A stretch of 38,669 bases of DNA, taken from NCBI GenBank assembly GCA_030614705.1, contig JAUWTN010000003.1, positions 1 through 38,669 of the forward strand, written 5' to 3'. The translations under genes were made by a program, and so were the position numbers. Origin of the DNA: Candidatus Aenigmatarchaeota archaeon. Lineage in GTDB: Archaea > Aenigmatarchaeota > Aenigmatarchaeia > QMZS01. The notes under the pieces were generated by a model that searched no databases, was not told where the DNA came from, and saw only the letters and a program-made list of their open reading frames with translations. Numbering within the stretch: the first letter of the stretch is position 1; the number at the start of each line of letters is the position of its first letter. Positions 8,361 to 38,669 of this stretch are shown piece after piece.

Positions 8361-9728
8361 ATGGTTAAAGATGTGCTAATGCATAAATTTGGCGGGGAAA
8401 TCGTTAGTACCCCTAAATATCTTGAAAAAAGCGCTGAGATTATCAAAGATAATCACGAATATGCAAATGTCGCAGTGGTATCTGCTCTAAGAGGGGTTAC
8501 TGAAAGTTTAGCGGAAAAAGGCGGTTATTTTTCAGGAAATGGTTCTGAAGAAGAAATTAACTCTTATATTCAAGAACTCAGGCAAATGCATTATGATATA
8601 ATTAATCCTCTTGGAGAACGAATAATTATTGAAGAAAATCTGGAAAGAAAATTGGAATCTCTTAAATCACATTTTAACAGCATTTATGATTTTGAACATA
8701 TTGACCCTCTAATGAAAGACAAAGTTCTTGTATATGGAGAAGGTCTTTCTTCAGAAATATTCCAAGGCTACTTTTTAGAAAAAGGGTTAAATCCAGAAGT
8801 CCTCACCGGAAAGAAAATTGGAATTATTACAAATAATATTCATGGTGATGCTGATATTGATTGGGAACTCACAAAGAACAATATTGCAAATTATCTAAAA
8901 CCTCTGCTTGAAGAAGGGATTACTCCAATTGTGACGGGATTTGATGGAAAAACCACTGAAGGAAAAATAACAACTCTTGGACGGGGCGGATCAGATACCA
9001 CTGCCTGTGCAATCGGACGCGACCTGAAGGCAAAGGAAATCAATTTATACAAAACAACAAAAGGGGTTACAACCGCAGATCCAAAAATAGTTGGAGAAAA
9101 AGTGAGAACAATCCCTTTTTTAAATTATTACGAAGCAATGGAAGCCGGAAAAATAATTCACAGGAAAGGCGTAAAGCATGCTAGAAAAGGAGAAATCCCC
9201 ATAACCGTCAGATATATCTCAGACCCTGAAATAAAAACTGTAATTAATGGAAACAAAAATGTTGAGAAAGGCGTAAAATTAATTACCCGCGAAGATGGTT
9301 GTTATATTATTGAAATCTACGATCCAGAAATGGCTGAAAAAAAAGGTCAGCTTGGATATCTAAGTGATATGATGGCTGACAATGGGATTAACCTTAAACT
9401 AGCAAGGGATGGTTTCAACAGCTTGACTTTCGTGCCGGATAGCAATACAACTAAAGAATCCATCAAAGCGGTAAAAAAAACACTTGAAGAAGAATATGAT
9501 TCTGTAATTATAATCCCTGAGGTGTCCATACTCAGAGCCATTGGAAACCTGGGTTATGCCTGGCGTCAAAGCGCTCAGTTCAATGAAATTATAGATGAAA
9601 ACACAAATCAAAAAGAAACCTGCCTTGGATCTTATCCTTATGAATATACCTGGGGTCTTGATGGGGTGGTGCCGGATTCAAAATCAGAAGATATAGTCCG
9701 TAGATTACATAAAAATCTAATAGAATAA
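8361..9728 (+). CDS. Aspartate kinase-like protein with C-terminal ACT-like region
   Basis: 'HKFGGEIVSTPKYL', 'TTLGRGGSDTTACAIGRDLKAKEINLYKTTKGVTTADPKIV', 'EAMEAGKIIHRKGVKHA'. The canonical KFGGTSV is altered to KFGGEIV. Confidence 0.83.
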   Translation: MVKDVLMHKFGGEIVSTPKYLEKSAEIIKDNHEYANVAVVSALRGVTESLAEKGGYFSGNGSEEEINSYIQELRQMHYDIINPLGERIIIEENLERKLESLKSHFNSIYDFEHIDPLMKDKVLVYGEGLSSEIFQGYFLEKGLNPEVLTGKKIGIITNNIHGDADIDWELTKNNIANYLKPLLEEGITPIVTGFDGKTTEGKITTLGRGGSDTTACAIGRDLKAKEINLYKTTKGVTTADPKIVGEKVRTIPFLNYYEAMEAGKIIHRKGVKHARKGEIPITVRYISDPEIKTVINGNKNVEKGVKLITREDGCYIIEIYDPEMAEKKGQLGYLSDMMADNGINLKLARDGFNSLTFVPDSNTTKESIKAVKKTLEEEYDSVIIIPEVSILRAIGNLGYAWRQSAQFNEIIDENTNQKETCLGSYPYEYTWGLDGVVPDSKSEDIVRRLHKNLIE

Positions 9729-10258
9729 TGGGAATCCAAACAAATTGGCATGTTTTAACAGGGGGTCCATGTTCTGGTAAATCAAAAGTCATTGAATACA
9801 TCAAATCCAAAGGACACAATACATCCAAAGAAGTTGCAAGAAATATAATAGATAATGGGATTGCAAATGGAAAAACTGTGGAAGAAATCAGAGAAAATAC
9901 AATAAAATTTCAAAATGACATCCTAAACCTTAAGATTAAACTTGAAAATAATCTAGATCCAAAACAGACAATTTTTCTTGACCGGGGAATTCCTGATTCA
10001 ATTGTTTATTTCAAAGAAGCTGGACTTGATATAAATATTGCAATTAAAGAGTCCAATAAAAGACAATACAAAAAAGTTTTCTTTCTTGAACAACCACCCA
10101 TCAAAAATGATTACGCAAGAACAGAAGATGTAAAAACCTCAAAAAGAATCAGCAAACTCCTGTTTAAAGCGTACCTTGATTTGGGGTATAATTTAATAAC
10201 CGTGCCGGTAACCAAAATAATTGAGGAAAAAGCCGAGATTATTTTAAATAATTTATGA
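9728..10258 (+). CDS. P-loop NTPase (AAA_28-like / nucleotide kinase-like)
   Basis: Walker A 'LTGGPCSGKSKVIEYI', 'FLDRGIPDSIVYFKEAGLD'. TAATG overlap with the upstream aspartate kinase gene. Confidence 0.8.
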   Translation: MGIQTNWHVLTGGPCSGKSKVIEYIKSKGHNTSKEVARNIIDNGIANGKTVEEIRENTIKFQNDILNLKIKLENNLDPKQTIFLDRGIPDSIVYFKEAGLDINIAIKESNKRQYKKVFFLEQPPIKNDYARTEDVKTSKRISKLLFKAYLDLGYNLITVPVTKIIEEKAEIILNNL

Positions 10259-10322
10259 ATTATAAGAAATTTATTAAGAATAAAATAATTTAAATATCTT
10301 TTATGGCCGGGATGGTGTAGCC

Positions 10323-10370
10323 AACTCTTTTCTCGCTTTAATCTAAAGAATAACAGAAAAGGGTCTATAA
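10323..10370 (+). other. tRNA-His D-loop intron (48 nt, between positions 17 and 18)
   Basis: BHB folded by hand: central GTAG (10317-10320)/CTAT (10365-10368), 5' bulge CC|A, 3' bulge AA|G, inner helix ACTCTTTTCT (10324-10333)/AGAAAAGGGT (10355-10364). Confidence 0.85.
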
Positions 10371-10390
10371 GGTAGCATGAGAGACTGTGG

Positions 10391-10452
10391 AGAACCTATC
10401 GAGCCATAGGCGAAGATAGGATAAATGATTGAACTGTTTGCAGTTCATAGAA
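10391..10452 (+). other. tRNA-His canonical-position intron (62 nt, 37/38)
   Basis: BHB: outer AGAGA/TCTCT, central CTGT (10385-10388)/ATAG (10447-10450), 5' bulge GG|A, 3' bulge AA|A, inner GAAC (10392-10395)/GTTC (10443-10446). Confidence 0.88.
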
Positions 10453-10550
10453 ATCTCTTAGGGGGGGTTCAAATCCCCCTCTCGGCCCTATTTTTTAAAT
10501 TGTTTCTTATAAATTCCAAAATATTTATCTAAAACTCTTTACAAAAATTG

Positions 10551-12104
10551 TTAATCTCGGTTTGATATCCTTTTTGTTTTCATGTGATTTACTATATCCC
10601 TGATTTTATCCTTTTTCAAATAGACCAACACACCTAATCCAACCATTAAAAGAATTAACAAATAAACCCCGTAATTTGATTCTCCTTGTTTCGATGAATT
10701 GCATATTAAAGAAGTTGAATTGCAACCATATTCGCAGGTTTGAATTGCTATCCATTTGTTATCTCCACATTCCTGCAATATCTCTCCTAAACATCTCTTA
10801 GCCCCTTCATCACATATTCTTTCAGATATTTCCAGTCCTTCATCTCCCTCAATAATAGAGTCTCCTAAACTCTCCGCATAGAACTCCACAAAAGTATCAT
10901 TTATTAACTCCACCTCTTTTTCTCCGAAAACTTCGTAAGTTATAATAACTTCATTTCCTTCGCTCAATTCTGAATAAATAAATAAATATTCCGGATCATT
11001 TTCAACAATTTCTATTGTTGCTCCTAAAGCTGTTACGGTAATTAAATCCGTTGAATTTGCAAATGCTTTTGGAATAGAATCATAAATAATAAAGTTCTTC
11101 GCTGTTTCATTTCCACTGTATTTTATTTTCATTGATAATCTGGATCTATTTTGCTCTGCCTTGAATTCTCTTGTTGCTTCCAAATCAGAAGTTATACTCG
11201 CAGACAATCTCAACATATTCTGCTTTGCCTGTTCGCTCATTTTTCCCTTTGCAAGAACCTTTTCTATTGCTGCCTGCAATCTTAAATTATTTCTTAAACC
11301 AACACCCGGGATTAATTCAAGTTTCTTTGTTGCATTTTTTAATACTTCTTTCTTTGGTAGAATGGAAATACCTCCAGGACTGCTTCCACCCCCATCATCA
11401 TTATTATCCTCATCTCCACCAGGAATATCCACAGAAATCTCCTCAGACACAGAATCCGCATTTGAAGACACAACCTGAACTGTTAAAGTTCCTGAAGCAC
11501 CTTCAGACAGGGTTATTTTCCATGATGCTGCTTTTGTTTCACCTGAACCACCCTCACCACCAGAGATATCACCTAAATTTATGGAGCTTGAACCCGTAAC
11601 AGTTACACCTGAAAGAGAAGAAATAGTGGCAACACAATTTTCTGCGTCAGTTTCTCCCCAATTCTGCACAGTTATCTGAACAGTCTCACTGCCAGAAGAC
11701 ATTATTGTGCTAATTGGGGTAACAGATAAACTCAATGAAGGTGGAGAAACAACATCAAAATAATCTGAATCTGAAGACTCTGATCCTGATTGTGTAGTTA
11801 CAGTAACACTTATCTGTTGCATATTCAATTTTTCGTTTGCTTTCACAGTTGTCCATGAAACTGATGTTGTTCCTGAAGAAAAAGATTTTTCCTCAGATTC
11901 TTCCACACTGAATCCCGAAGGTAAATTAATTTTTGCTGTTCCGCTTTCAGACAACCCATTGACAGTTACAGTAAAAGCAATACCCTGCATAACGGTTCCT
12001 TCATTTGAACCTGGTTGTGATACAGAAACCATATAAGAACCAGCAGAAACCAATTGTAGACTCAACAAACAAAGCATCATCCCAATCAACAGTTTTCTTA
12101 TCAT
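10551..12104 (-). CDS. Secreted/membrane-anchored surface protein (517 aa)
   Basis: N-terminal signal peptide (MIRKLLIGMMLCLLSLQLVSAGS), Ser/Thr-rich beta-type repeats, acidic Gly/Ser linker (GGDEDNNDDGGGSSPGG), Cys-rich CLGEILQECGDNKWIAIQTCEYGCNSTSLIC motif, C-terminal TM followed by a basic tail. Confidence 0.8.
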   Translation of the reverse strand: MIRKLLIGMMLCLLSLQLVSAGSYMVSVSQPGSNEGTVMQGIAFTVTVNGLSESGTAKINLPSGFSVEESEEKSFSSGTTSVSWTTVKANEKLNMQQISVTVTTQSGSESSDSDYFDVVSPPSLSLSVTPISTIMSSGSETVQITVQNWGETDAENCVATISSLSGVTVTGSSSINLGDISGGEGGSGETKAASWKITLSEGASGTLTVQVVSSNADSVSEEISVDIPGGDEDNNDDGGGSSPGGISILPKKEVLKNATKKLELIPGVGLRNNLRLQAAIEKVLAKGKMSEQAKQNMLRLSASITSDLEATREFKAEQNRSRLSMKIKYSGNETAKNFIIYDSIPKAFANSTDLITVTALGATIEIVENDPEYLFIYSELSEGNEVIITYEVFGEKEVELINDTFVEFYAESLGDSIIEGDEGLEISERICDEGAKRCLGEILQECGDNKWIAIQTCEYGCNSTSLICNSSKQGESNYGVYLLILLMVGLGVLVYLKKDKIRDIVNHMKTKRISNRD

Positions 12105-15100
12105 ATTTTATCCATATCGCAATTACCAACCCTAAAATGTTCTCTTATTTTTTCTGTTCCCTTATCACTTTCAAGGTTTATTACAACCATATATTCCCCA
12201 TCAACCCATGAAGAACCCGGCAAGATTTTAAGCAATCCATATCCCTTCTCATTTGTCTGATTTAATACATAAGTTACACTATAATCACTACCCTCCTCAA
12301 GGATACTAAATCCAAATCCAAACATATAAATTTTCTCCACAGAAATATTTGCTCCTGAAATAGATGTTCTATTGAATTCGTAGGTTTTTATAACTACACC
12401 AAAAGTATCATTTTCATCAAGGCACCATTTATGCTTTGCAATTATCATTGAAGCATTGTTATAATACATAATTTCCCAGGAAGGTTGTTTCTCCCAAGAT
12501 AAGTTTTCTTGCTCTTCACCAAACCTGATTGAATCTGTCCAAATATCTGTTGGAAGACGGTTATAATATTCTTTATTGCCGGTTTCATCCCCATAGAAAT
12601 CATAATGATTATCCCCATCGCTTATCTCCGCAACTTCAGTATCATCATCCACTGCAAATTCTGTCAATTCCTGCACTCCATTATTCTTCCCATCATAGAC
12701 AACAATTGTGAAATTCTTGTTTGTAGATTTATTTAGGTCCAAATCCTGATTGCTCTCATTTATCATAGTATAATAACTTATTGTAGTGTCTGATAACCAT
12801 AATTTTACTCCCAAAGAAGATACATTTGCGGTTGTGATTCCTTCCCCTGGCCAAGGTCCTATTCCTGCAAGATATAATCCAGAAGTGAAATTCTCCCCAA
12901 CTTTCACTCCAACAGAATCAGAGAAATTTAAGTCTGTATCAAAAAATGCTGCGAGTGAGCATTCATCATCTGAACACGCAGGACTGCTCAGGTTCTTACC
13001 TTCTATTCCGCATGCAAGAATTACATTGTAAAGAGTACTGCTTATATTCAGTTTCTGCATATATCTCAACCTGTACTCATCACCCAACAAAGATAATATT
13101 TCAGAAGAATTAATCCCAGCAATTCCAAAGTCGAGATACCATTCCATATCAGAACAATTTGTTATTTTCAAAGTAATTAAAGTGTAATTCCTGTCAAAGG
13201 TTAAATTAATTTCACTTCCTTCTGAATATTCAACACCCAAATTACTCATATTGAAATAACAGGATTCGTTCTGGCTTATATAGAATTTTCCTGATGATTT
13301 GTTTAACAGGAAATACTTGTCTCCCCCATCCAGTTCCAGTGTTGTTATATTTGTAGAATCATTTCCAGGTCCAACAATTTCACAGCCTCCCTAAGGATGT
13401 GCTCCTCTCATAACACCCAAGACAGCCACACTACCACCACACCTGGTTTCATTTCTTAATTCATGAATATCCCCATAATTTTCCCACCCAAATCTTTCAA
13501 GTTTCACAGGTTCAAAACCTGAAATCATATGGGCATAACCTGAATAAGTAGTCACAAGATATTTTCTTGTTGTTGCTCTAGGCCATTTCCAGTCTTTCAT
13601 TTTCTCCATTCCTTCGCTTGATTCCGCAATAATTCCAAACGCATATCTGCCCGAAGAAATATTATAATCCTGCAGGTTAATTTTAATCTCACATAAATCA
13701 GAATTGCAGGTTGTTACATTTGAATTTATCAGGATTATCTGACCTGTTTCATCATTCCTCGCCTTATCTATTGTAAGATTTATTTCCCCGCTTCCCCCTC
13801 CAGGTCTTTTAACTATAACCGGAATTGTTATATTATCACCATATCTATAATCTCCAAGTTCAGGCCAGTCTCCTGTATTATTCCTGTAAAACATTATCTC
13901 AGTTCCTCTCGGGTCTATACTTAACAGGTACATTCCTTCAAATATTTCCCTCTCCGACTGGTTTGAATGAACAGAAATTATATTTCCGTTCAGGAAATTT
14001 TCAGAATCATTTGAAATAATCAAGGTATCATAAACTCCTTGTAAATTGGTGTCTGCAACAAGTAAATAAACCATATCCTCTTTAGTTTCTACTTCTCCTT
14101 TCATGAAGATTCCTGATTTTGAAAGAGAGGTATTTACAAAAATATAACTGCCTGCACTTACATTTATTCCGGATAAAGTAACCTCATTCTTTTTTATTAA
14201 AGTAATATTCCACAAAGCACCATAAGTATCCATTATTACCCCTCCTGTTGTGTTGTGAGGTGCATTTGTCATATTTGTTTCATTGGTAATCCACACAGTT
14301 GTTCCATTGTTATAAAAATAGACAGGTCTGTCCTGTGTGCAACCCTCATCATCGCATATTTCCCTGAAATATCTTTTTCCAAAATAGAAATTGCCATCTA
14401 ATTGTGGTGGGATAATCTCTATCAGTTCCTCTCCTTCGTGTGTACAGAATTCCCCGCAAATTCCGTTTGCTCTTTTAACTCTGAATTGTTGTTCATCAAC
14501 AGATACAACCTTCCAGTTTGTACCATTCAATTCAAACTCGTCGTCAGTTGTTAATGCGGATGATTCGGTTAAGTCTGTTGAGGCGTTAATCCAGACATGG
14601 GTGGAATTAGAAACTACATAAACTGTTTGTCCTTCATCACAAGATTCACCACCCCAATAATCTTTCCATTCCTTTTCAGATTCTACACAAAATCTCATTC
14701 CACGATTATTATCGTATTTATCAGACACATTCAACTCTAAAAATGGACTGCATTCTTCGCCCAAACAGATTTTAATTCTGTCTGCGAGCATAACTCTGAA
14801 AATATAATCATATGGATCACCATCCTCATACTTACCAACATCTAAAATCTTCCATTCCCTGCCACCAATAGTAAAACTATCTCCATCACTTAATCCCTGT
14901 GTAGAAGCCAGATTAACAGATGCATTAATCCATACGTGTGTTGTGTTTGATACAACATACACCGTACTGCCATTCACACTGCCAGGACATTCTCCTGTTA
15001 CGCATCTATATTGTTTTGCTGTTTATTTATTCTGTGGGCCTTCATCACAATGACCTGCAACTCCATCTACGCTTTCATATAAAATGCATTGTACATTTAC

Positions 15101-18100
15101 GAAATTTTGCGGATATGTTAAACTTACATTAAATCTATAGTCCACATCATTACAATCAAAATTACTTACAATACCTCTCTCAACAAAATCCTCTGCAGAT
15201 ATTATCATCTTATTTGCATCATCAACCAAATAACAACCGCCCTCATCACACACATCCCTTTCTCCAATATTTCTTATGAACCATGTCCTGCCTCCCGCGG
15301 TGAAATTATCACCAATAGTTTTATTTATAGTGGAAGTCATATCCACAGGACTAACAGTTAAATTATTCTCTATTTTTATCCATAAATGAGTTGCGTTGGA
15401 GACAATATAGGTGGTATTGGAATCTACAGGACAACCATTAGGTTCTGGATTTGTCCAACTTCCATTTGGCAATATGCAATAAACTCTCGCAGTATTATTG
15501 TCATATTTCTGAGATACAGTAAAATTCCAACAATTCTTACAAGACCCATCACACCAGAGACTTATATTATTTGTGCCCCCAGAGCAGGATACATTGTCGC
15601 TCTCTAAGTGCCTCGTTCTTTCTATGTCTACATATACTGTTCGAGAATTATATGCATCATCGTGCAACCACCTCTCATTGTCGCATCTATCCTGATCATT
15701 ACCAACAGAAAAATCTTTATAAATTACTTCCTGCTCGTGTATATGGTAATTATTTATCTCAGGAACATTAAGAACCAAATCTTTTATCCTGAACATCATT
15801 TCCTCATCTACTATACTTCCGCCAATCTCCTCTATTTCAAAAACAACAAAGTATTTATCAGAAGTGAAGTTCTCCAAATAAAGAGTCAAATTGCAGATAT
15901 TGCCAATACAACTGACATCAAATGCATCTTCCAGACCCATATCCGGCATTTTTGCTTCTTCATCAAAAACTTCGAATATTGTTATATTCATCAGATTATG
16001 TGGCTGTGCACAGGAACCATCATCAGGAAGTTTGCATCCTTTAAAAATAATTGTAAGATTTTGGTTTCTTGAGAAAACGGGCCCTTCTTTATCATCTTCC
16101 TCATCCAAACCACCTTCAACAGACAGTTCAATATTATATTCTGAGAAAGAGAACCAGAAAGTTCCAAAGTCTTCCTTACCGTCATATTCTCCATTTATTA
16201 TAGCATAAATATCTGAGGTATCATTCTCATCTATATTTATTGATATATTATAGATTTTCATAGGCATACCAGGCCCTTCTCCAGGCCCTTCATCCAAACT
16301 GACATTAGCAATAAAAGTATCAACAACACTATAAGAGACCTTTTCCGTAGGAGACATAAAATCCTGCATTTTCATCATAGAATCTATGCTGAAATCCACA
16401 TCACCAAGGTTAATAGGCTGCCAATCTGAAACATCATTTGCAAAAATACCAAACAACACATTACAGACAACAGGATAAACTATTTACCGGTCAAAAGCCC
16501 ATATAGATTTTGTTCCATTGTAAATAACAGGCAGAACATTTATGAAGAAATTCCTTATCTCAAATCCACCCCATCCAAAATATTCATCCCCTGTATCATT
16601 ATTCCTCAAAATAATATCAACTCCATACCATCCAGTTGGAAGGTTTCCGGTTATTGTGAGATTTGCTCCTGAAGTAGTGCTCATTATTACAGTGGAACTT
16701 GAATTAAAATCACCTGAATCAAATTCTTTCATCAACTGGTCATTTCTTAAATGATTTACTTCAACTATCAACCCCTCGCATCCAGAACACATTGGAGAAG
16801 AACTGTCTGCAAACTCAGGATCAGCCACAGTTACTCTCAAAGTAACCGGTTCTCCTTCTTTTGTGAACCACATTCCTTCCTCTGCATTTACAGGTTCAGC
16901 AAATATAATATATTTCTTGACCATGAAAAAAGATTCTCCTGTACCATACTCATTACTACCTTCATAATCCGCCTTATACCTGAATTTAATAAAATAAAAT
17001 CCCTCACTGGAAGGAGAATTAAACGATAATGTTGAATTTGCAAAAGATTCATTTATATTGTTTCTATAAACCGAGTCTGAAAATACATTTTCATAATTAG
17101 GAAACTCCCTATGAATCTCCATTATGCTGATATCAAGCAAAGCAGAAGAATTCAATTTTTCTCTTGTCTTTAAATCAGTTAAGTCAATTTTTATTTTTGC
17201 AGTTGTATTTGGTTTTAAAAACCATATAGATTCACCATTTTCACCAATCAAAGAACCTTCTGCGATTAAATGCTGGATTCCAAAAAATGTTGAGCTAGTA
17301 AGTTCATCATCTAATTTTACCTTTACATTATAAACACCTGTCTTATTTAAATTATTAATTATTAAAATACATTGGTCCGCCATTTCTGCCGGGGTACCCT
17401 CCATAGGGACATTGGATAAATTCAGAGCCTCAGTGAAATTATAAAAATTATAATCAACCAAATCTTTATAAGAATTCCCAAGTTCATCAACGATATCAAT
17501 TAAACTGAGTCTTGAACAGTTGTGTGTTGAATTAATTATTGGTATTGTATCTGGTCCATTTGGACCAAAACCATTTTCTGATAATTGCATTATTGCAACA
17601 GTAACATTATCCTCAGGGGAAAATGCACTAACCGTGACACCAGATCCACCCTTATCCATTTTATCAATAAAATTCATATTTACAGCTACCAAAAAAAGTG
17701 ATGATGAAGAAATAGAAAAGCCCATAACAAAACTCTGCTCTTGGGTATTGTGCGTTCCTTTTAGCTCTAATTTATATATCCCCTCTTCTTCTGTATTATT
17801 ATAGGTCCCTTTATATACGCCATCACTCTCTTTTGTTAAACTAATTGTACTTTTAACCCCTTTCGGAGTTATTATCTCTGCAATTGGATAACTTGGATTA
17901 ATTAAATTGCCATTATTATCCTTCGCTATTGCAACAATTGATACAGTAGAATTTTTGGAAAACTGGGAAGTAACAATCCCAACTCTATTTGTTGCATACC
18001 CATACAACTTAAACGAATCTACGAAAATATCAATTAAATTCAGATTATTATTTAGAGAAATTGTATATTTTCCTGTATTGGAAATATTGAATATAAATCT

Positions 18101-18976
18101 TACATAACCTGCACTATTTGTTGTGTTTGAATTTGTTGATATTGAATTTCCTGAAGAATCCCTGAGAGAAAAATCTATGGTGCAATTTGTACAGAAACTT
18201 AGGTTTTCATAAATAGCAAGCACAAACATATTCGTTTCTACAGTGAAATCATATTCATCTTTTAACTCAATCAGTATAATCTTTTTACCGTCAGAGTTTA
18301 TACCCGCCACAAGATATTTCGTGCCATTTAAAACTACAATTTTATTTATCCCTGATTCCTGCTCCACTTCATTACCAACATCTTCAGAAGTATTATACAA
18401 TGCAAAATTAGGATCATCATCTATATATAAAGTATCAAAACCTCCTGCCTTGTTTCTGTCAAGAACCGCAAAATAATAAGTATCCAATCCAATAACATAG
18501 GTTCCATTATAAACAGCAGATTTGTTCAGGTTATGTAAATCAGAAAAATTACTTCCTGTTGCCAAAGTTGTTGTATTCACAACAATAACACTATTACTGC
18601 TGTTTCCTGTAAAAAAAGATATAAGATTAAACTTCTGTTCTAAGATTCTAAACTTTATTTTTACTTCTTCTGAACTTGTGGAAAGCAATGCATAATATTC
18701 TCCTTCAGTATAATTGGTCAAAGAAAATGATATATCAAAAGAGGTATTGACAGAATAATCTGTTGAATTTTTCAATGTATCTGAAGAATTATAAATTTTT
18801 AGAGTTAATATTGTTGAACTGCTTAAATCTCCACTTAGTATTAAATTTTCATCAGGCGTGTATATTATTTTTGATGAGGTTACCATCAAAGCATTTACAG
18901 GAGATAATAATAAAAATATTAACAATAAAGATAAAAATAATTTTGGTTTTGTAAATCTTATAGAATAAATAAACAT
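12101..18976 (-). pseudogene. Giant surface protein gene, one reading frame interrupted by three in-frame stops (disrupted gene or stop-readthrough gene)
   Basis: Four ORFs (18976-16484, 16459-15023, 14977-13391, 13249-12101) lie in the same frame. The only interruptions are TAA (16486-16484), TAA (15025-15023) and TAG (13393-13391). The translation between fragments is open and similar in composition. Signal peptide only at the 18976 end. Confidence 0.75.
14280..15560 (-). repeat. Imperfect Cys-containing protein repeats (CDEG...TVYVVSNxTHVWINAS...GxxW) in the giant surface protein
   Basis: Repeated cores: NTTYIVSNATHLWI (~15.40 kb), STVYVVSNTTHVWINAS (~14.95 kb), QTVYVVSNSTHVWINAS (~14.61 kb), PVYFYNNGTTVWIT (~14.30 kb), each followed by a GG/GTxW element. 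Confidence 0.7.
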
Positions 18977-19081: not shown

Positions 19082-20602
19082 TTACAAATTCTCAAATCTA
19101 TCAATAACTTTATTTCTCCCAATTGCATCAACCAACATTGCAATCCTTGGTCCTTGTTTTTTTCCAATTAAAACCTGATAAATTATCTGGAAAAATTCCT
19201 TCCCTTTTGGTTTTACAATTCCAAAAATCTGCTGTTGCAATTCTTCAGTTGAGCTTTCTTTTTTTAGAAGTTCTGCAATTTCTTTTAATCCTTCTCTTTG
19301 GTCTTCTGTTATTTCCACCTTATTAGCTACAAGTTTAATCTTGACATTTTCAGGTGCGTATTTTTCAACCCAATATTTTACTTTTTCTGACCTTTCAATT
19401 GCCAGTTCCAGATCAGTTTCATCCATTTCAATTCCCCTTTCTTTCATCATCTTTGAAATATAATTTTTTAGTTCTGTTGGGGGGACTACCTGTACCAATA
19501 ACACAAGTTCTGAAAAAGAAACTCTTTTTGGGCAGGTCTTATGCTCTTTAATTTTAATTAATTCATATTTTCTTTTTAAATCTTCGTCCATATCTTCCAG
19601 ACCAAAATAAATTCTTTCGCATTTGTCAAACTCATTGTAAATATTGTAGACATCCATATCAAATGGTATGAATATTGTTTTGTTTAGTCTCTGCGCATAA
19701 ATAAATCTTACAACTTCAGGTTCATAAATCCCAAGCAACTGCGAAACTGTTGCAATATTTCCCTTTGAACTTGACATCTTTTCTTTCTGTCCTTTTAGAT
19801 GAATAAATTCATACATTGGACCCACAGGCGGATTATAACCAAAAATTTCTTTTGAAATCAAAACTCCTGTGTCCCACGAACCTCCCTTTGATTTATGGTC
19901 TTTTCCCGAACTCTCAAAATCAACTCCGTAATAAGCCCATCTTGCAGGCCAGTCCACCCTCCATTTGATATTCACAACATTAGTAATTTCCCTAAAATCA
20001 ATTTCATTCTCATTTCCGCATGAACAAATGTAAGAAATCTTATAATCTCCAAGATATTTTATCTTTGTAAAATCTTTCCCGCATTTTTCGCAGTAAGCTC
20101 CTATTGGAACCCAGTCATCAGCCAGAGGTTCTTTCCTGAATTTATTAAGAAGCTCTTTTATTTTCTCTGTTTTTTCCAAAGCGATTTTTATATTTTCAGC
20201 GAAAATTCCTTTTTGATATAACTCTGCTGCGCGAAGATAAACAGGTTCTATATCCAATTGTTTCATTTCCTGAATTATTAAAGACTCAAAATGCTCTGCG
20301 TAAGATTTATGGCATCCCCAAGGGTCGGGTACTGCGCTCAGAGGCATTCCCAGATATTTCTCAAATTCTTCAGGTACTCCTTTTGGCACCTTCCTAAATC
20401 TATCAAAATCATCCCAAATATACAAAAACTTTGCCTGTTTTCCTAATTTCAAAATTGACTGATAAACAAAATATTGAGTCATTATTTCCCTCGCATTCCC
20501 TATATGAACCACTCCTGAAGGGGTAATACCGCTCTCTACAATATACACTTCTTTATTCCCTCTTTCTAATACCTGTTTCGCAAAATTATCCGCCCAGTGC
20601 AT
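19082..20602 (-). CDS. lysS: Class I lysyl-tRNA synthetase
   Basis: 'MHWADNFAKQVLERGNKEVYIVESGITPSGVVHIGNAREIMTQYFVYQ', 'YIWDDFDRFRKVP', 'KMSSSKGN' class I motifs; Zn-binding CEKC...CSC. Confidence 0.95.
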   Translation of the reverse strand: MHWADNFAKQVLERGNKEVYIVESGITPSGVVHIGNAREIMTQYFVYQSILKLGKQAKFLYIWDDFDRFRKVPKGVPEEFEKYLGMPLSAVPDPWGCHKSYAEHFESLIIQEMKQLDIEPVYLRAAELYQKGIFAENIKIALEKTEKIKELLNKFRKEPLADDWVPIGAYCEKCGKDFTKIKYLGDYKISYICSCGNENEIDFREITNVVNIKWRVDWPARWAYYGVDFESSGKDHKSKGGSWDTGVLISKEIFGYNPPVGPMYEFIHLKGQKEKMSSSKGNIATVSQLLGIYEPEVVRFIYAQRLNKTIFIPFDMDVYNIYNEFDKCERIYFGLEDMDEDLKRKYELIKIKEHKTCPKRVSFSELVLLVQVVPPTELKNYISKMMKERGIEMDETDLELAIERSEKVKYWVEKYAPENVKIKLVANKVEITEDQREGLKEIAELLKKESSTEELQQQIFGIVKPKGKEFFQIIYQVLIGKKQGPRIAMLVDAIGRNKVIDRFENL

Positions 20603-21573: not shown

Positions 21574-21701
21574 GGGCCTGTAGCTCAATTGGATAGAGCG
21601 CTGGACTTCGGATCCAGGTGTTGGGGGTTCAAGTGAACCTTTCTTTTTAGAAAAACATTTTAACTTCATAAAAAAGGGTTTTGAAAATCCTCCCAGGCTC
21701 A
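21574..21701 (+). tRNA. tRNA-Arg (UCG) with a T-loop intron (59/60)
   Basis: Acceptor GGGCCTG (21574-21580)/CAGGCTC (21694-21700)+A73, D-arm GCTC/GAGC, anticodon stem CTGGA/TCCAG with loop CTTCGGA (TCG at 21608-21610), T-stem GGGGG (21623-21627)/CCTCC (21689-21693) interrupted within its loop. Confidence 0.92.
21634..21687 (+). other. tRNA-Arg T-loop intron (54 nt, between positions 59 and 60)
   Basis: BHB: outer T-stem GGGGG/CCTCC, central TTCA (21628-21631)/TGAA (21682-21685), 5' bulge AG|T, 3' bulge AA|T, inner GAACCTTT (21635-21642)/AAGGGTTT (21674-21681). Removal restores the T-loop TTCAAGT. Confidence 0.87.
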
Positions 21702-31936: not shown

Positions 31937-34900
31937 TCAGACTTTCTCAAGCGACTTCTCAAGCGAAGTTATATATATCTCAACCATTCTGAAATTTCCT
32001 GTCTTAAGTTTTTTCATAGCAAGTTTAAAGTCAAGTTCATAATCCTCAGTATATATCTTGCGTTCTTTCAAATCCTTTATCTTGGCTTCAATAACTTTTA
32101 ATTTTTCTATATTGGTTTTGTATAAACTCAACTCAGCTTCAGTAATTTTATGCGGGTCATGTTTTGTTGGTCTGAACTCAACAAAGAAAGGTTTACCATC
32201 ATTATATTTTGGATATTGCATTAACCCTGCGCCAACACCCATCCTAGTAATTCTCTGCGAATATTGCTCGCCATATTTTGTTTTTACTTTTTCTATATCC
32301 ACCAAAGATTTTGTATTTAACTGGATTTCTGTAAGAACATTACCCGATATCGCTGATTTAAAGTCCGCCAATACCTGAGAACACATTATAATTCCAATAC
32401 CCCACTTCCTGAATTCCCTCGCTGCTTTTTCAAGAGCAACATAACCTCCAGTCCCCCCATATTTTTCAAGCAACCTATGAACTTCATCAAAAACGAGCAA
32501 TAATTTTAAATCTGAAGATTCTTCCCAAGTCTCTCCAAAAATGGATTTAATTATGTGGTCAACGGCTTTATCATATTCCCCGGGTTTTAATTTATTCAAA
32601 CAAAAAATTGTTATTTCGCCAGAGTTTATGAATTCTTTTATTTTTAATTCAAAGTCTGGTTTTTCAACATCATAAATCAATCCTGGATATGATTTTATAT
32701 CAAAATCACTCATACCAAATTCCTTATATTTCCTTGTGAGATTTGAATCTTTGCACGCCTTCACAAAACCAGTCCATTGCGCTGTTGGGTCAAAAACAAT
32801 TACAGGAATATTTTTATCAAGAGCTTCTTCAGCAATTACAGAAGCGGATACAGATTTCCCGGCTCCTGTTGCCCCAGCGGATATAAGGTGTGTTGTTAAA
32901 TCTTTAGGGTCGAAATAACAATAATTATCAGTTCCTGCAAATTTTCCAATTTTAAATCCTTCCCTCGGAACTTTCTTGTAATCCAAAGGATATAAATATC
33001 TTTGTTCTTTTTCCTTTTCTTTTTTCCAGATAAGATAATAACGCCAGATATAAGTCCCTCCTACGATTATACCGGTTAATAATGCCATTAAAATCAATCC
33101 AACCATCCAGGGTGATTCAAACAATGGTCTGACTACTTCGAAGGTTTCTACATCCATAATCCCTCTATCATAATATATTGCCCAAACTTCTAAATTATAG
33201 AAGCCTTTTTCAGTAATATCCAGCGGTATGTCCTCTCTTACTATCTTTGTGGTCTCTAAAATTACTGAAGTATTCACCTCACTCACCACTTTTCCGGTTT
33301 TCTGCTCTTTAATTATATAAGTTAAATTTATTGGCAACAACTTCTTTTCTCCAAGATTGATTAACTTAACAAGGAATTCAAGATTATCCCCGGGATTTAT
33401 TTCTTTTGTTGCAAGTTCCAGTTCAACAGAGAACACTGCGGTTGCTTTTTCAAGAACCGTAATCGAAATTGGAACATTCTTCGTTTGATCTCTCGCCTTG
33501 ATTACAATATTCCCTGTATAAATCCCGGTGCTTTGGTTTAAAGGAACTGTAAGATAAAGGGGTATCTCTTCTGTTGAATCCGGGGTTATAACTTTTCTTG
33601 TAGAACCCAAACTCAAAATCTCTTTCAAAGTTCCTGTAATTTCAAGACCCGTATCAATATCAGAACTCATTCTGCTCTTTAAAGAAAGTTGATAATTTCT
33701 TGAATCTCCCTGAAATATTCTTACATTGGCGAGATTAGTATCCACAATTAAAGGGAAATCATCCAAAGGACAATCCTGAGGACAGTTCTGGTAATTTTCG
33801 CCAACTTCGCAAACCCCATCCCCGCAAGTTGAAATTTCTAAATCAATTGTAGTGGTTCCGCCTGACGAACTTCCGCTAGGTGAACTTGTACCTGGATCAA
33901 CAGGTGGAGTATAATAATATCCGCTGCAATCAATCAAAGACTCACCAGAATAACAAGATTCCGCAATAATAAATGCAGAAAGCTCTGAAGTATTAAATTC
34001 AAATACATTGCCTGAAGGATCAAAATTTCTATCTAGATAATCAGAACTGGAATTGCATTGTTGAGCCGCATAATTCCAATCATGGCACACAAGAACTTCA
34101 AGATTATTTACATTTTTTATGGTCTTACCTGCAATTATTGCTGATGCAAGTGCCTGCTCAAAATCAATAGTAAAATCCACATTCTCAGTTAAATTTGTCT
34201 CAATTACAATACCTAATAAAACCGTCCCTACAGTATTGGGTAATCCTGCATGCACTAAAGGAAGACTTGTATAATTTGGATAATAATCAAACTTAAAAGG
34301 ATTATTGGTGTTATTGGAATTATTGAAATCAGCATCGCGCAAAACTATTTCCTGGCCGAACAAATCAACCTTCACATCATATTTTCTTTTATGTAATGTC
34401 CAGTTATATATCTCGCTGGTCTTCGTGTTATTTTCATGTATTCTATAAAGCTCATCCAAATCACACCCTTCCCTGTAAAAAGTAAAGTTTGCATCTATAG
34501 GAATTCCATCAGGGTCTATCAAATTGCCTGAAACCTGCACAGGGATATAAATATCAAACCATCCTGTTTTATTGCTCTCAACATTTCCTGCAGTAGTATC
34601 ATTTGCGTAAACAATTATATCATAATCTCCTGTATATTCGGGTCTTGAAAAATTGAAAACAAAATTTCTCTTATCAAATTCATTTTCAGCTGAAAGATAA
34701 GTTTCAGTATAATTACTTAAACCTAAATTCCATGATTGTCCGCTGTTGGTGTGGGTTACCTTAGCGTTCACAGAACTTATATTTTTGTTATCGGTTATAT
34801 TTACTTCAAAAGTTATATAATCTTGAGTATAAGTGTTATTGTTAATGAAATCAGCAGTTATATTTGAAAACCATGGCGAAATAGAATCAACATAGATTAC

Positions 34901-37900
34901 TGCGTCTTCTTCCAAATCAGACAACACCACACCATTCACTTCATAGGTTCCAGTAACTTTCAAATCATTCTCAATTATATTATTAGTAACATTTGGGGCT
35001 GTGCAATTAATATGCCATAACTCATTGCCCGAATGATATGAATAATTAACAACATTGCAATTACTCCCTCCAACTAAAACTGCCCAACTCATATTTTCAG
35101 TAACAGAAGTGCTTCCAGACAAAGCTCTTACACTAAGCTCTAAAGTATCATTTACATTCACATCTGCAACCGGAGTTGTCCCGTTTGGACTGATAATATC
35201 CACAGTAAAATTAATTATTTCAAAGAAGATTGAAATATTTATAAAATCAGGAGCATCTGAATCCAGATTCTCAACTTTAAGAGTATAATTATAAGTCCCC
35301 ACTGCATCAGGACCAACACTTGTATTATAAAATATTTCAACAATTCTTTCCGTATTATTGGTCACAGTAATCGAAAGTTGAGTTGCCTTGTTGGTATCAT
35401 TTAAAGTAAGATATTCTGCAGTTGTTCCTGAATTTACAGTAATTGATAAATTAAAATCGAAGTTTTCATCTTTTATATTATCAATCCCAATTTCGCCTAA
35501 TTTATTTACCTCTGCTTTCAAACCAACGGTTTTATTTAATGTTAAAGGTGCTGCATCCCAATCCAAAGGAGTTATATTCAAAGTAAACGGCAATATCTTT
35601 AAACAATCCAGACAATTGCTGACATTTGCAGTAATATTTAAATTATAAACTCCTATCCAGGAAGTGCCTAAAGTTGAAGCATTTACAGTCATTAATATTG
35701 TTTCTTCCCCCCCGCGATCTAAATTAAAATTATTGTTGCTGAAAGTTATCAGGTTTATAAAAGTTGAAGAATTATCTCCTGTCAGGTTTATAACCGCATT
35801 TGTTAAATTTACATTACCGTAATTCTGTATTGTAAAATTTGTTGTTCTGTCTGAAGATATTGGCACAGAAAGAGAAAGACTGTTTTCAACAAATTCCAAT
35901 TGTTTGTTTGGCTCAACAAAAATTGTTATATTTTTATTAACTGTGTCATAAGTAGCATCTCCGTTTTGCCAGGTAACATTAAACCATATCGTCCTGTTTC
36001 CGGTATCCGCTTCCGAAGTTATTGTTATATTAAATAAGTTTGTGCAATTCTCTCCAGTCCGGATTGGATCGCAAACAAGTTCCTGGATATATATCCCCGC
36101 AATAGAAGAAATATTTATAACTGGACTGTACATGTCCCCAGTCCCATTATTTATTAAAACAAAAGTCATGTTTTGCGTAATATTGTAAACAATGGTGAGA
36201 TTTGATGCTTCAAGATATTCGGGGGTTAAATTTAATTCCGCGGTGGTGTTGCCTCCTTCCACAATAGCCTCAACCACCATACTATCAACTCCCGCAACAT
36301 TATAAAAAATATTTGATTGGTCAGTTATATTGCAGGAAAAAGGGTAAGTATCAGCTCCATATATCTGCGATTCCTTAACTGCGATTCCCTGCGAATTTGT
36401 TGTGTTATTTCCTATATACAAAGTGGTTAAATTATAAAAATCCACTGAATAATCAACAATTCCATCATAAGTATAATTATCCGCCACCATACACTGCAAA
36501 GATAAACTCGCGTTTACCATGCATCTGTATTGCCAGATGCCTGTTGTTGAATTAAGAGTGCAATAATCAGAATCAATTGTCAGATTCTTCACATAAGAGA
36601 ATCCTGTTAAATTAAAATATCTTATTTCTGAATCAGATTCATAAAACGGTTTTTCCGCGTCCGCAATTATTTTCCTTCTCCCAACATTTTCTGTTCCTCC
36701 CAATAAATAAGTATCATTAACAAGTCCGCTGATGCTTTTTCTATGGGTTAAATTTAATTGAGTTGGATTTCCTGAATGGAAATTTACGCAAGCCCCATCA
36801 TCATCCACAAAGCAGATATAATTTATCTGGGCATAAGTCATATCCATAGCATTTTGCTCATGCTCATATTCATTTAGAATAACAGAAATATTTTCAGCTG
36901 AAGAATAAGAACCCGAACAGGTGGCCACAGTCCAGGGTTCTTCAGAAGAATTATAACCCCCATAATTATTCACTAAAGGAGTCAAACCGCATAACACACC
37001 CCCTATTTTTAACTGAAAATCTCCATGATAAGTGCCATCAAAAAACTCACCCCATGCCTTATAACTTATATTTATCTTATCTGTTTTTGTGATATTTGAA
37101 AGATTTTGGAACAATTCCACACCCCCTCCATCCCCAGATAAATCCGCAAAAAAGGTTTCATTCTCAAAGGAAACATTTGATACGCAATCATCACATGAAG
37201 AAACAGTCCACAAAGAAAAATCAGTGGAATCAAAACCCGCATTTAAAATATTATATCCAACATCATTTGTTGACGGATTGCTGTCTTTTAAATTTATTTC
37301 CAAAGTTTTGCTGGCGCTCGCAGTCAGGTTTATTAAAAAAACTAATTCGGTTAGATTATCCAGATATACCCGACTATTATTCAATTCTGATTTTGCTGTT
37401 GAAGTCCAGGGATAAACTGAAAAAGGTATTGTCGCTCCATCCATCCTAAGCTGAGTATTATTTAATTTCCAGTCAATTAATTCAAAATCACCATCCGCAA
37501 AAAAACTTCCATTCAAAATTATTGGGTAATTTACTCTGTCCCTTCCTGAAGTATCTTCAATAGTTACATTAAGCCTATATTTATTTACAAGATACCAACT
37601 CACGTTTGCGCCGCCAACACTTTGCCCGCAATTATCTTTCACTGAAGAATTTATACTTAAATTTTGTCCTTTATAATAACTTCCGGTTTCTAAAGGCGAC
37701 AGGATTGTTAAATTTAATCTGCCCATCAGGAATACTGATTTATTGGTCTGATTATTGGAAATATTATAATAATTATCAGCGCCGGTTTTATTAATTATTA
37801 CTATTAATATACTTTGTCCAACATTAAAACTGCTTGAACTATTATATTCCAGAGAACATCCTCCTGAAGAATTTGTCGAACTGTTCCCAATTGGTGTGGA

Positions 37901-38669
37901 GGTATTATCCATATAGAAAGAACAATTGTAGCCTGATTCTTCTGCAGGCGACCCATACAAATTTAATAACCTTGCATGAAAAATAGTGGATTCATTTTTG
38001 TAAAAAGAAAAATTAATCGGGTTGGTTATTTCAGGATGAATACTCCCCCTGATGGTTATATTTAATTCTGTTGAATTTCCTTCATTGTAATAAGGGTCAT
38101 TAAATATACCTATCTTCCAATTTGAATGTCCTAAAGAAAAATTCTGATTTGGTGTGAAATTAAAATTACAGAATCCACTTGCGTTTGACTGCGTATAATT
38201 TGCAAAAACACCCCCAACCCATAAAGAACAATTTGCGCCTTCAACACAATCCGAAGAATTTGTATTATTAACAAAAACAGAAAGAAAGATTGACTCGTTC
38301 CTAAAAACAAGAGAATTATTTCCTGAACCTAAAGAGCCATTGTAGATTACAGAAATCTCATGCTCAAATATATTGAAATTTATAATTGTTGTGTTGCTTA
38401 CGCTATGGAACTTCTGGGAAAGATTGCTCTGATTGCAATCGAAATATTCGAACAAGAACCTGCTTGTCCCTGTCCAGTTTTTATCTGAAGTTAAATTAAA
38501 TTCCACAGACTCATTGCCTACGTTTTTTAGACCTTTATTCACCCAATTCCCTGTCTGATTTTCAAAAACCCAGAGTGTTAAATTAGTTATATCCCCATCA
38601 ATATCCGATACATTAAGTGAAAAAGTGAAATTAGTGCCCCAGATTCCTGAATAAGGAGTGAGATCAATA
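31937..38669 (-). CDS. Giant surface protein with C-terminal TM and cytoplasmic HerA/FtsK-like ATPase domain (5' end outside window)
   Basis: Frame remains open from 38542 to 38669 (IDLTPYSGIWGTNFTFSLNVSDIDGDITNLTLWVFENQTGNW...), so the GTG at 38542 is not the true start. Ectodomain of Ig/NEW3-like, sequon-rich repeats; 'CGDGVCEVGENYQNCPQDCP'; TM 'PWMVGLILMALLTGIIVGGTYIWRYYLIW'; Walker A 'ISAGATGAGKSVSASVI'; Walker B 'LKLLLVFDEVHRLL'; 'RKWGIGIIMCSQVLADF'. Confidence 0.92.
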   Translation of the reverse strand, partial: IDLTPYSGIWGTNFTFSLNVSDIDGDITNLTLWVFENQTGNWVNKGLKNVGNESVEFNLTSDKNWTGTSRFLFEYFDCNQSNLSQKFHSVSNTTIINFNIFEHEISVIYNGSLGSGNNSLVFRNESIFLSVFVNNTNSSDCVEGANCSLWVGGVFANYTQSNASGFCNFNFTPNQNFSLGHSNWKIGIFNDPYYNEGNSTELNITIRGSIHPEITNPINFSFYKNESTIFHARLLNLYGSPAEESGYNCSFYMDNTSTPIGNSSTNSSGGCSLEYNSSSSFNVGQSILIVIINKTGADNYYNISNNQTNKSVFLMGRLNLTILSPLETGSYYKGQNLSINSSVKDNCGQSVGGANVSWYLVNKYRLNVTIEDTSGRDRVNYPIILNGSFFADGDFELIDWKLNNTQLRMDGATIPFSVYPWTSTAKSELNNSRVYLDNLTELVFLINLTASASKTLEINLKDSNPSTNDVGYNILNAGFDSTDFSLWTVSSCDDCVSNVSFENETFFADLSGDGGGVELFQNLSNITKTDKINISYKAWGEFFDGTYHGDFQLKIGGVLCGLTPLVNNYGGYNSSEEPWTVATCSGSYSSAENISVILNEYEHEQNAMDMTYAQINYICFVDDDGACVNFHSGNPTQLNLTHRKSISGLVNDTYLLGGTENVGRRKIIADAEKPFYESDSEIRYFNLTGFSYVKNLTIDSDYCTLNSTTGIWQYRCMVNASLSLQCMVADNYTYDGIVDYSVDFYNLTTLYIGNNTTNSQGIAVKESQIYGADTYPFSCNITDQSNIFYNVAGVDSMVVEAIVEGGNTTAELNLTPEYLEASNLTIVYNITQNMTFVLINNGTGDMYSPVINISSIAGIYIQELVCDPIRTGENCTNLFNITITSEADTGNRTIWFNVTWQNGDATYDTVNKNITIFVEPNKQLEFVENSLSLSVPISSDRTTNFTIQNYGNVNLTNAVINLTGDNSSTFINLITFSNNNFNLDRGGEETILMTVNASTLGTSWIGVYNLNITANVSNCLDCLKILPFTLNITPLDWDAAPLTLNKTVGLKAEVNKLGEIGIDNIKDENFDFNLSITVNSGTTAEYLTLNDTNKATQLSITVTNNTERIVEIFYNTSVGPDAVGTYNYTLKVENLDSDAPDFINISIFFEIINFTVDIISPNGTTPVADVNVNDTLELSVRALSGSTSVTENMSWAVLVGGSNCNVVNYSYHSGNELWHINCTAPNVTNNIIENDLKVTGTYEVNGVVLSDLEEDAVIYVDSISPWFSNITADFINNNTYTQDYITFEVNITDNKNISSVNAKVTHTNSGQSWNLGLSNYTETYLSAENEFDKRNFVFNFSRPEYTGDYDIIVYANDTTAGNVESNKTGWFDIYIPVQVSGNLIDPDGIPIDANFTFYREGCDLDELYRIHENNTKTSEIYNWTLHKRKYDVKVDLFGQEIVLRDADFNNSNNTNNPFKFDYYPNYTSLPLVHAGLPNTVGTVLLGIVIETNLTENVDFTIDFEQALASAIIAGKTIKNVNNLEVLVCHDWNYAAQQCNSSSDYLDRNFDPSGNVFEFNTSELSAFIIAESCYSGESLIDCSGYYYTPPVDPGTSSPSGSSSGGTTTIDLEISTCGDGVCEVGENYQNCPQDCPLDDFPLIVDTNLANVRIFQGDSRNYQLSLKSRMSSDIDTGLEITGTLKEILSLGSTRKVITPDSTEEIPLYLTVPLNQSTGIYTGNIVIKARDQTKNVPISITVLEKATAVFSVELELATKEINPGDNLEFLVKLINLGEKKLLPINLTYIIKEQKTGKVVSEVNTSVILETTKIVREDIPLDITEKGFYNLEVWAIYYDRGIMDVETFEVVRPLFESPWMVGLILMALLTGIIVGGTYIWRYYLIWKKEKEKEQRYLYPLDYKKVPREGFKIGKFAGTDNYCYFDPKDLTTHLISAGATGAGKSVSASVIAEEALDKNIPVIVFDPTAQWTGFVKACKDSNLTRKYKEFGMSDFDIKSYPGLIYDVEKPDFELKIKEFINSGEITIFCLNKLKPGEYDKAVDHIIKSIFGETWEESSDLKLLLVFDEVHRLLEKYGGTGGYVALEKAAREFRKWGIGIIMCSQVLADFKSAISGNVLTEIQLNTKSLVDIEKVKTKYGEQYSQRITRMGVGAGLMQYPKYNDGKPFFVEFRPTKHDPHKITEAELSLYKTNIEKLKVIEAKIKDLKERKIYTEDYELDFKLAMKKLKTGNFRMVEIYITSLEKSLEKV

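Follow-up and report, generated by a model that had tools for sequence, protein, structure and literature searches.

A giant surface-protein gene with three in-frame stop codons at a variable locus of an Aenigmatarchaeota archaeon: probable recent nonsense inactivation

Results

A single reading frame with three premature stops

The window, which denotes the whole stretch of 38,669 nucleotides analyzed from Candidatus Aenigmatarchaeota archaeon (assembly GCA_030614705.1, contig JAUWTN010000003.1), carries a giant gene for a surface protein of 2,291 residues, interrupted by three in-frame stop codons, and we consider it probable that this accessory gene has undergone very recent nonsense inactivation or truncation to its N-terminal module. 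Translation of the minus strand from 18976 to 12101 produced a single frame of 2,292 codons with three inner stops, no frameshift and no Ns, the other two frames of the same interval containing 194 and 272 stops. The coordinates, the stop types (TAA, TAA, TAG) and the single unshifted frame given in an initial annotation were all reproduced on retranslation. The gene and its parts are as follows:

12101..18976, minus strand: giant gene for the surface protein; its 2,292 codons count the three inner stops and the final TGA
16487..18976, minus strand: fragment 1, 830 aa, signal peptide and macroglobulin/Ig-like beta-sandwich module
16484..16486, minus strand: premature stop 1, TAA, codon 831, in a linker past the N-terminal module
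15026..16483, minus strand: fragment 2, 486 codons, without signal peptide
15023..15025, minus strand: premature stop 2, TAA, codon 1318, within a repeat region that varies between lineages
13394..15022, minus strand: fragment 3, 543 codons, conserved with orthologs
13391..13393, minus strand: premature stop 3, TAG, codon 1862, within a linker that varies
12104..13390, minus strand: fragment 4, 429 codons
12101..12103, minus strand: terminal stop TGA, sharing an ATGA overlap with the partner start codon ATG

Relatives of the window genome in the GTDB collection were mostly Aenigmatarchaeota. Eleven full-length orthologs from this phylum and neighbouring phyla were observed as uninterrupted open reading frames (ORFs) of 1,925-2,345 aa, and because these align over the entire window protein, each stop included, without a break in frame, the giant gene is one gene rather than four. 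The proposal that protein-like sequence continues past the stops is borne out by these alignments. In the orthologs the three premature-stop columns hold varied residues or gaps, never a stop, and the window frame is disrupted relative to its intact orthologs (three stops versus none in the 11 full-length sequences). Two apparent frameshifts outside homopolymers split an ortholog in JAPLVB010000006.1 (L123:13227-14750), reflecting either real decay or assembly error; L130 was discounted as a second broken ortholog since it contains a run of N.

The stops appear to be young. On a fixed tree of 12 orthologs the window branch accounted for 0.162, 0.181, 0.135 and 0.097 of tree length in segments 1 to 4, respectively, and no faster evolution of the segments past the stops was detected relative to segment 1. 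The downstream segments have therefore not been free of constraint for any large part of the history of the lineage. Approximately 4-5% of random substitutions in the giant gene would create a stop, so that three stops correspond to some 60-85 neutral substitutions, affecting close to 1% of sites. Short-lived in-frame stops and recent nonsense pseudogenes have been described in prokaryotes (Belinky et al. 2021, PMC7918605), and the window gene resembles these in having in-frame stops, absent from relatives, within an otherwise well-kept frame, whilst differing in the presence of three stops in one 6.9-kb DPANN surface gene. Among the four options initially raised (very recent nonsense mutation, consensus error, C-to-T hypermutation and readthrough), the first is best supported, given the intact orthologs and the lack of downstream acceleration, and both readthrough and uniform consensus error are disfavoured. 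For the C-to-T option, ancestral codons at the stops are not inferable from orthologs approximately 30% identical with unconserved columns.

Survey for other interrupted genes and possible consensus error

The window is contig 31 of a bin of 729 kb (55 contigs, 78% complete). Interrupted genes were surveyed in 162 kb of this genome by inspection of same-frame neighbours, a codon-likelihood scan for such genes being too weak, and in approximately 377 kb of congeners. Other same-frame neighbours of at least 100 codons in the 162 kb were limited to two ordinary junctions between genes and a pair of antisense frames, indicating that the stop pattern in the giant gene is not due to chance. No further gene continuing past an in-frame stop was found in the 162 kb, nor any in the congeners except a giant gene of G001 described below.

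These data bear on the suggestion that strain mixing or thin coverage at a variable site introduced stops into the consensus of a truly intact gene, an explanation that we regard as possible but doubtful, although it is the chief alternative. False internal stops are known to arise from assembly errors (PMC11017572), the bin is fragmented and incomplete, strain mixing is worst in variable islands and, apart from the window gene, two orthologs in metagenome-assembled genomes also carry frameshifts, in one case adjacent to a run of N. The absence of any other in-frame stop in the 162 kb argues against such an artefact, and under uniform error the probability that all three stops would fall in the giant gene (2,288 of 34,844 long-frame codons) is P ~3e-4, although local mixing of strains could still have produced them.

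Termination and the readthrough alternative

A global change of code was rejected, since all three stop codons terminate genes (TAA 52, TGA 16 and TAG 9 among long-frame terminators in the 162 kb) and no other gene there is interrupted. Genome-wide leaky termination was likewise rejected as tandem stops are not enriched, and pyrrolysine cannot account for two TAA stops. The release factor aRF1 is present and intact, with its NIKS motif reading NVKN as in the other congeners examined. A search for suppressor tRNAs, proposed initially as a check, recovered no UUA or CUA anticodon among about 15 recognisable tRNA genes, in a catalogue that is incomplete because introns interrupt many tRNA genes at unusual positions.

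Programmed or tRNA-suppressed readthrough of the three stops, giving full-length protein at a low level, is in our view very improbable. It would account for the retention of orthologous residues downstream as well as in segment 1, in-frame stops under purifying selection have been reported in bacteria (PMC7918605), and both the genus-wide NVKN motif and the in-frame TAG of the G001 giant gene could be taken in its favour. None of the three stops is conserved in any ortholog, however, two of them are TAA, their contexts (TAA-A, TAA-A, TAG-G) have no common feature, and the terminator usage, tandem-stop and anticodon data above all argue against it; moreover the NVKN motif is common to congeners that have no interrupted genes. 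It is equally hard to credit that the genus deliberately keeps a coat protein low or truncated by means of partly read-through stops, with the NVKN aRF1 assisting and the G001 TAG as a second case.

Several observations on aRF1 and tRNA genes were made alongside this work. The NVKN motif (aRF1 at L110:6642-7715, L167-L175 and L189) was found in this genus and in the family member G009, with NVKS in G010. Approximately 45 profile positions near residue 316 are unmatched in the aRF1 of G000. The aRF1 frames of G011, G020, G021 and G026 (L191 and others) are 864-924 aa long, and their matches to the window-genome aRF1 split at residue 176/177, next to the GGQ loop, which suggests that a large segment, for instance an intein, has been inserted in frame. 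Several tRNA genes of the window genome have apparent introns in the T-loop or anticodon region (L033, L036-L038, L040-L042), most being missed by standard tRNA finders, and an apparently intron-bearing tRNA gene with a UCG-like anticodon is present at 21580-21643 on the plus strand of the window.

The truncated product and possible gene fission

Of the four fragments, fragment 1 alone begins with a hydrophobic signal peptide, upholding the initial annotation. Two nanohaloarchaeal homologs (L141/L143) are naturally approximately 800 aa, end at window residue 806 and are followed immediately by a partner gene. Stop 1 lies 25 residues past the end of these proteins, and fragment 1 consequently holds the whole N-terminal module together with its secretion signal. 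The nonsense mutations would have inactivated the gene very recently, with translation probably ending at codon 831 to release an 830-aa secreted N-terminal module. This module is all that the natural nanohaloarchaeal homologs contain, and it could therefore still be functional as a short coat protein. The remaining 1,460 codons would no longer be translated and may be at the beginning of decay. Internal re-initiation is unlikely because the later fragments lack a signal peptide and gene starts in the window genome look leaderless.

A selected gene fission or shortening, in which fragment 1 is functional and at least one later fragment is made separately, is compatible with these short homologs, with the location of the stops in linkers and with the coupling of fragment 4 to the partner start by the ATGA overlap, which is retained in several orthologs. 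It is nonetheless improbable. As well as being without signal peptides, fragments 2-4 have their first starts (GTG, GTG and ATG) between 9 and 48 codons after the stops and lack a ribosome-binding site, and although a GGGAGG sequence directly follows stop 3, no ordinary start codon stands in frame at the typical spacing from it.

Four observations weigh against very recent nonsense inactivation. Firstly, all three stops lie in poorly conserved linkers with surrounding conservation below the gene mean, a borderline result (P ~0.04-0.06) that hints that parts of the protein might still matter; in a structure model spanning the stops (mean pLDDT 61) stop 1 is in a loop, and stops 2 and 3 are in low-confidence stretches. 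Secondly, frameshifts are lacking. Archaeal mutation-accumulation studies give indel-to-substitution ratios of 10/84 and 19/167, or about 0.115 per substitution (PMC9997560), and with these ratios three nonsense hits and zero frameshifts have a P of ~0.02-0.06 under plain neutral decay. The initial annotation was right that no indel is present but attached more weight to it than this value allows, and the missing indels are a mild rather than a strong argument against plain decay. Thirdly, the nearest ortholog is ~37% identical, too distant for an estimate of dN/dS (the ratio of nonsynonymous to synonymous substitution rates) on the final stretch of the lineage; there was no closer ortholog in the class or the GTDB collection, nor any congener with a closely similar copy. 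Finally, the partner gene is still intact beside the interrupted giant gene.

The giant protein is a predicted secreted, macroglobulin/Ig-like, N-glycosylatable surface protein

In fragment 1 the signal peptide is followed by a chain of beta-sandwich modules. Pfam MG2 matched this fragment with E=1e-7, just under the curated cut-off, and sequence matches in the PDB were alpha-2-macroglobulin-like. A fold model of fragment 1 (mean pLDDT 76) gave local matches to A2ML1 and complement C3/C5 but no global match, the best Foldseek matches (A2ML1/complement) having an overall TM of only about 0.13. The MG2-type matches hint at a resemblance to alpha-2-macroglobulin. Its CxEQ thioester motif was not found in the read-through protein either by scanning for GC[GA]EQ, G.GEQ, CGEQ and GCLEQ or by reading every cysteine. 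All four fragments carry N-glycosylation sequons, at densities of 3.7-5.4 per 100 aa. No C-terminal membrane segment was found in the giant proteins, and searches of Pfam and NCBIfam returned macroglobulin-type matches only, with no S-layer family.

A membrane-anchored partner

The giant gene is followed by a smaller gene with which it is syntenic:

10551..12104, minus strand: intact partner, 517 aa, with signal peptide and C-terminal transmembrane anchor

Giant and partner genes are adjacent in at least 10 orthologous loci, the giant proteins having a signal peptide but no C-terminal membrane segment and the partners having both. This giant/partner family is conserved and widespread, with no description in the libraries that were searched. 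The arrangement resembles SlaA/SlaB, the two-component S-layer of Sulfolobus (PMC12175726), in that a large secreted glycosylatable outer protein is encoded beside a smaller membrane-anchored one, and by analogy the giant protein may be the outer component of a two-part coat. We do not claim membership of that system. There is no sequence relation to it in family and structure searches, the giant protein has macroglobulin/Ig-like modules, and the anchor is C-terminal in the window partner but is reported to be N-terminal in SlaB (PMC12175726). In addition, the outer gene is interrupted in the window.

A variable site in the genus

The giant gene and its partner lie at a site that varies between congeners and is bounded by the following features:

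19082..20602, minus strand: class I lysyl-tRNA synthetase (LysRS), one flank, 89-92% identical in G001, G005 and G007
10303..10490 (approximate), plus strand: intron-bearing tRNA-His-like gene marking the edge of the site and found in G007 too, where the site is empty
9728..10258, plus strand: AAA_28 domain protein, the other flank

In G007, whose LysRS is 89% identical, some 420 bp separate the flanks; the tRNA-like sequence is there, but neither the giant gene nor the partner. In G004 the LysRS and AAA_28 genes are adjacent and a distant giant/partner pair is located elsewhere on the contig. In G001 (LysRS 92% identical) the site holds an unrelated giant Fn3/Ig-like gene (L080:5789-13396), itself cut by one in-frame TAG (L080:8390-8392), and the C-terminus of its product is 79% identical to the C-terminal part of the window partner, which points to recombination between surface genes. 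With empty, different or interrupted alleles at one site in the genus, the giant gene is therefore optional and exchangeable; it would be dispensable, since congeners carry nothing or another giant gene there.

The tRNA-His-like gene (GCCGGGATGGTGTAGCC...ACTGTGG...GGGGGTTCAAATCCCCCTCTCGGCC) has apparent introns in the D-loop and anticodon loop, was missed by both ARAGORN and the Rfam tRNA model, and was also observed at about 4071-4490 of L113. Elsewhere in the window, a 2,201-aa ORF at 31937-38542 on the minus strand has a HerA/DUF87 ATPase region near its C-terminus only.

Discussion

Variable loci for large surface proteins have precedents in archaea, including the VARTIG hypervariable Ig-protein loci of Thermococcales and archaeal alpha-2-macroglobulin homologs (PMC8416519). 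The window site is likewise a variable locus for large Ig-like surface proteins: as in VARTIG, a large secreted beta-sandwich protein is encoded there and locus content is swapped between close relatives, and pseudogene fragments have been reported in VARTIG too. The genes and the lineage are different, and no CxEQ thioester motif was found in the window giant. At the S-layer gene exchange islands of Haloquadratum walsbyi (PMC3119063), too, one chromosomal site encodes different surface proteins in close relatives, although the gene that takes over there is a functional one whereas the window allele is interrupted.

Taken as a whole, the giant gene is most likely, in the main, an unremarkable instance of gene decay within a protein family that is so far uncharacterised. 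This is a caution that a striking giant gene with multiple stops in a metagenome bin can be the result of ordinary decay or of consensus error. For the organisms themselves, the data indicate that a very large and probably costly coat protein is optional in these tiny symbiont-like archaea, the site being empty, refilled with an unrelated giant gene or occupied by an interrupted one. The LysRS/tRNA-His site is a tractable place to study surface change in DPANN archaea, presumably directed towards hosts and viruses.

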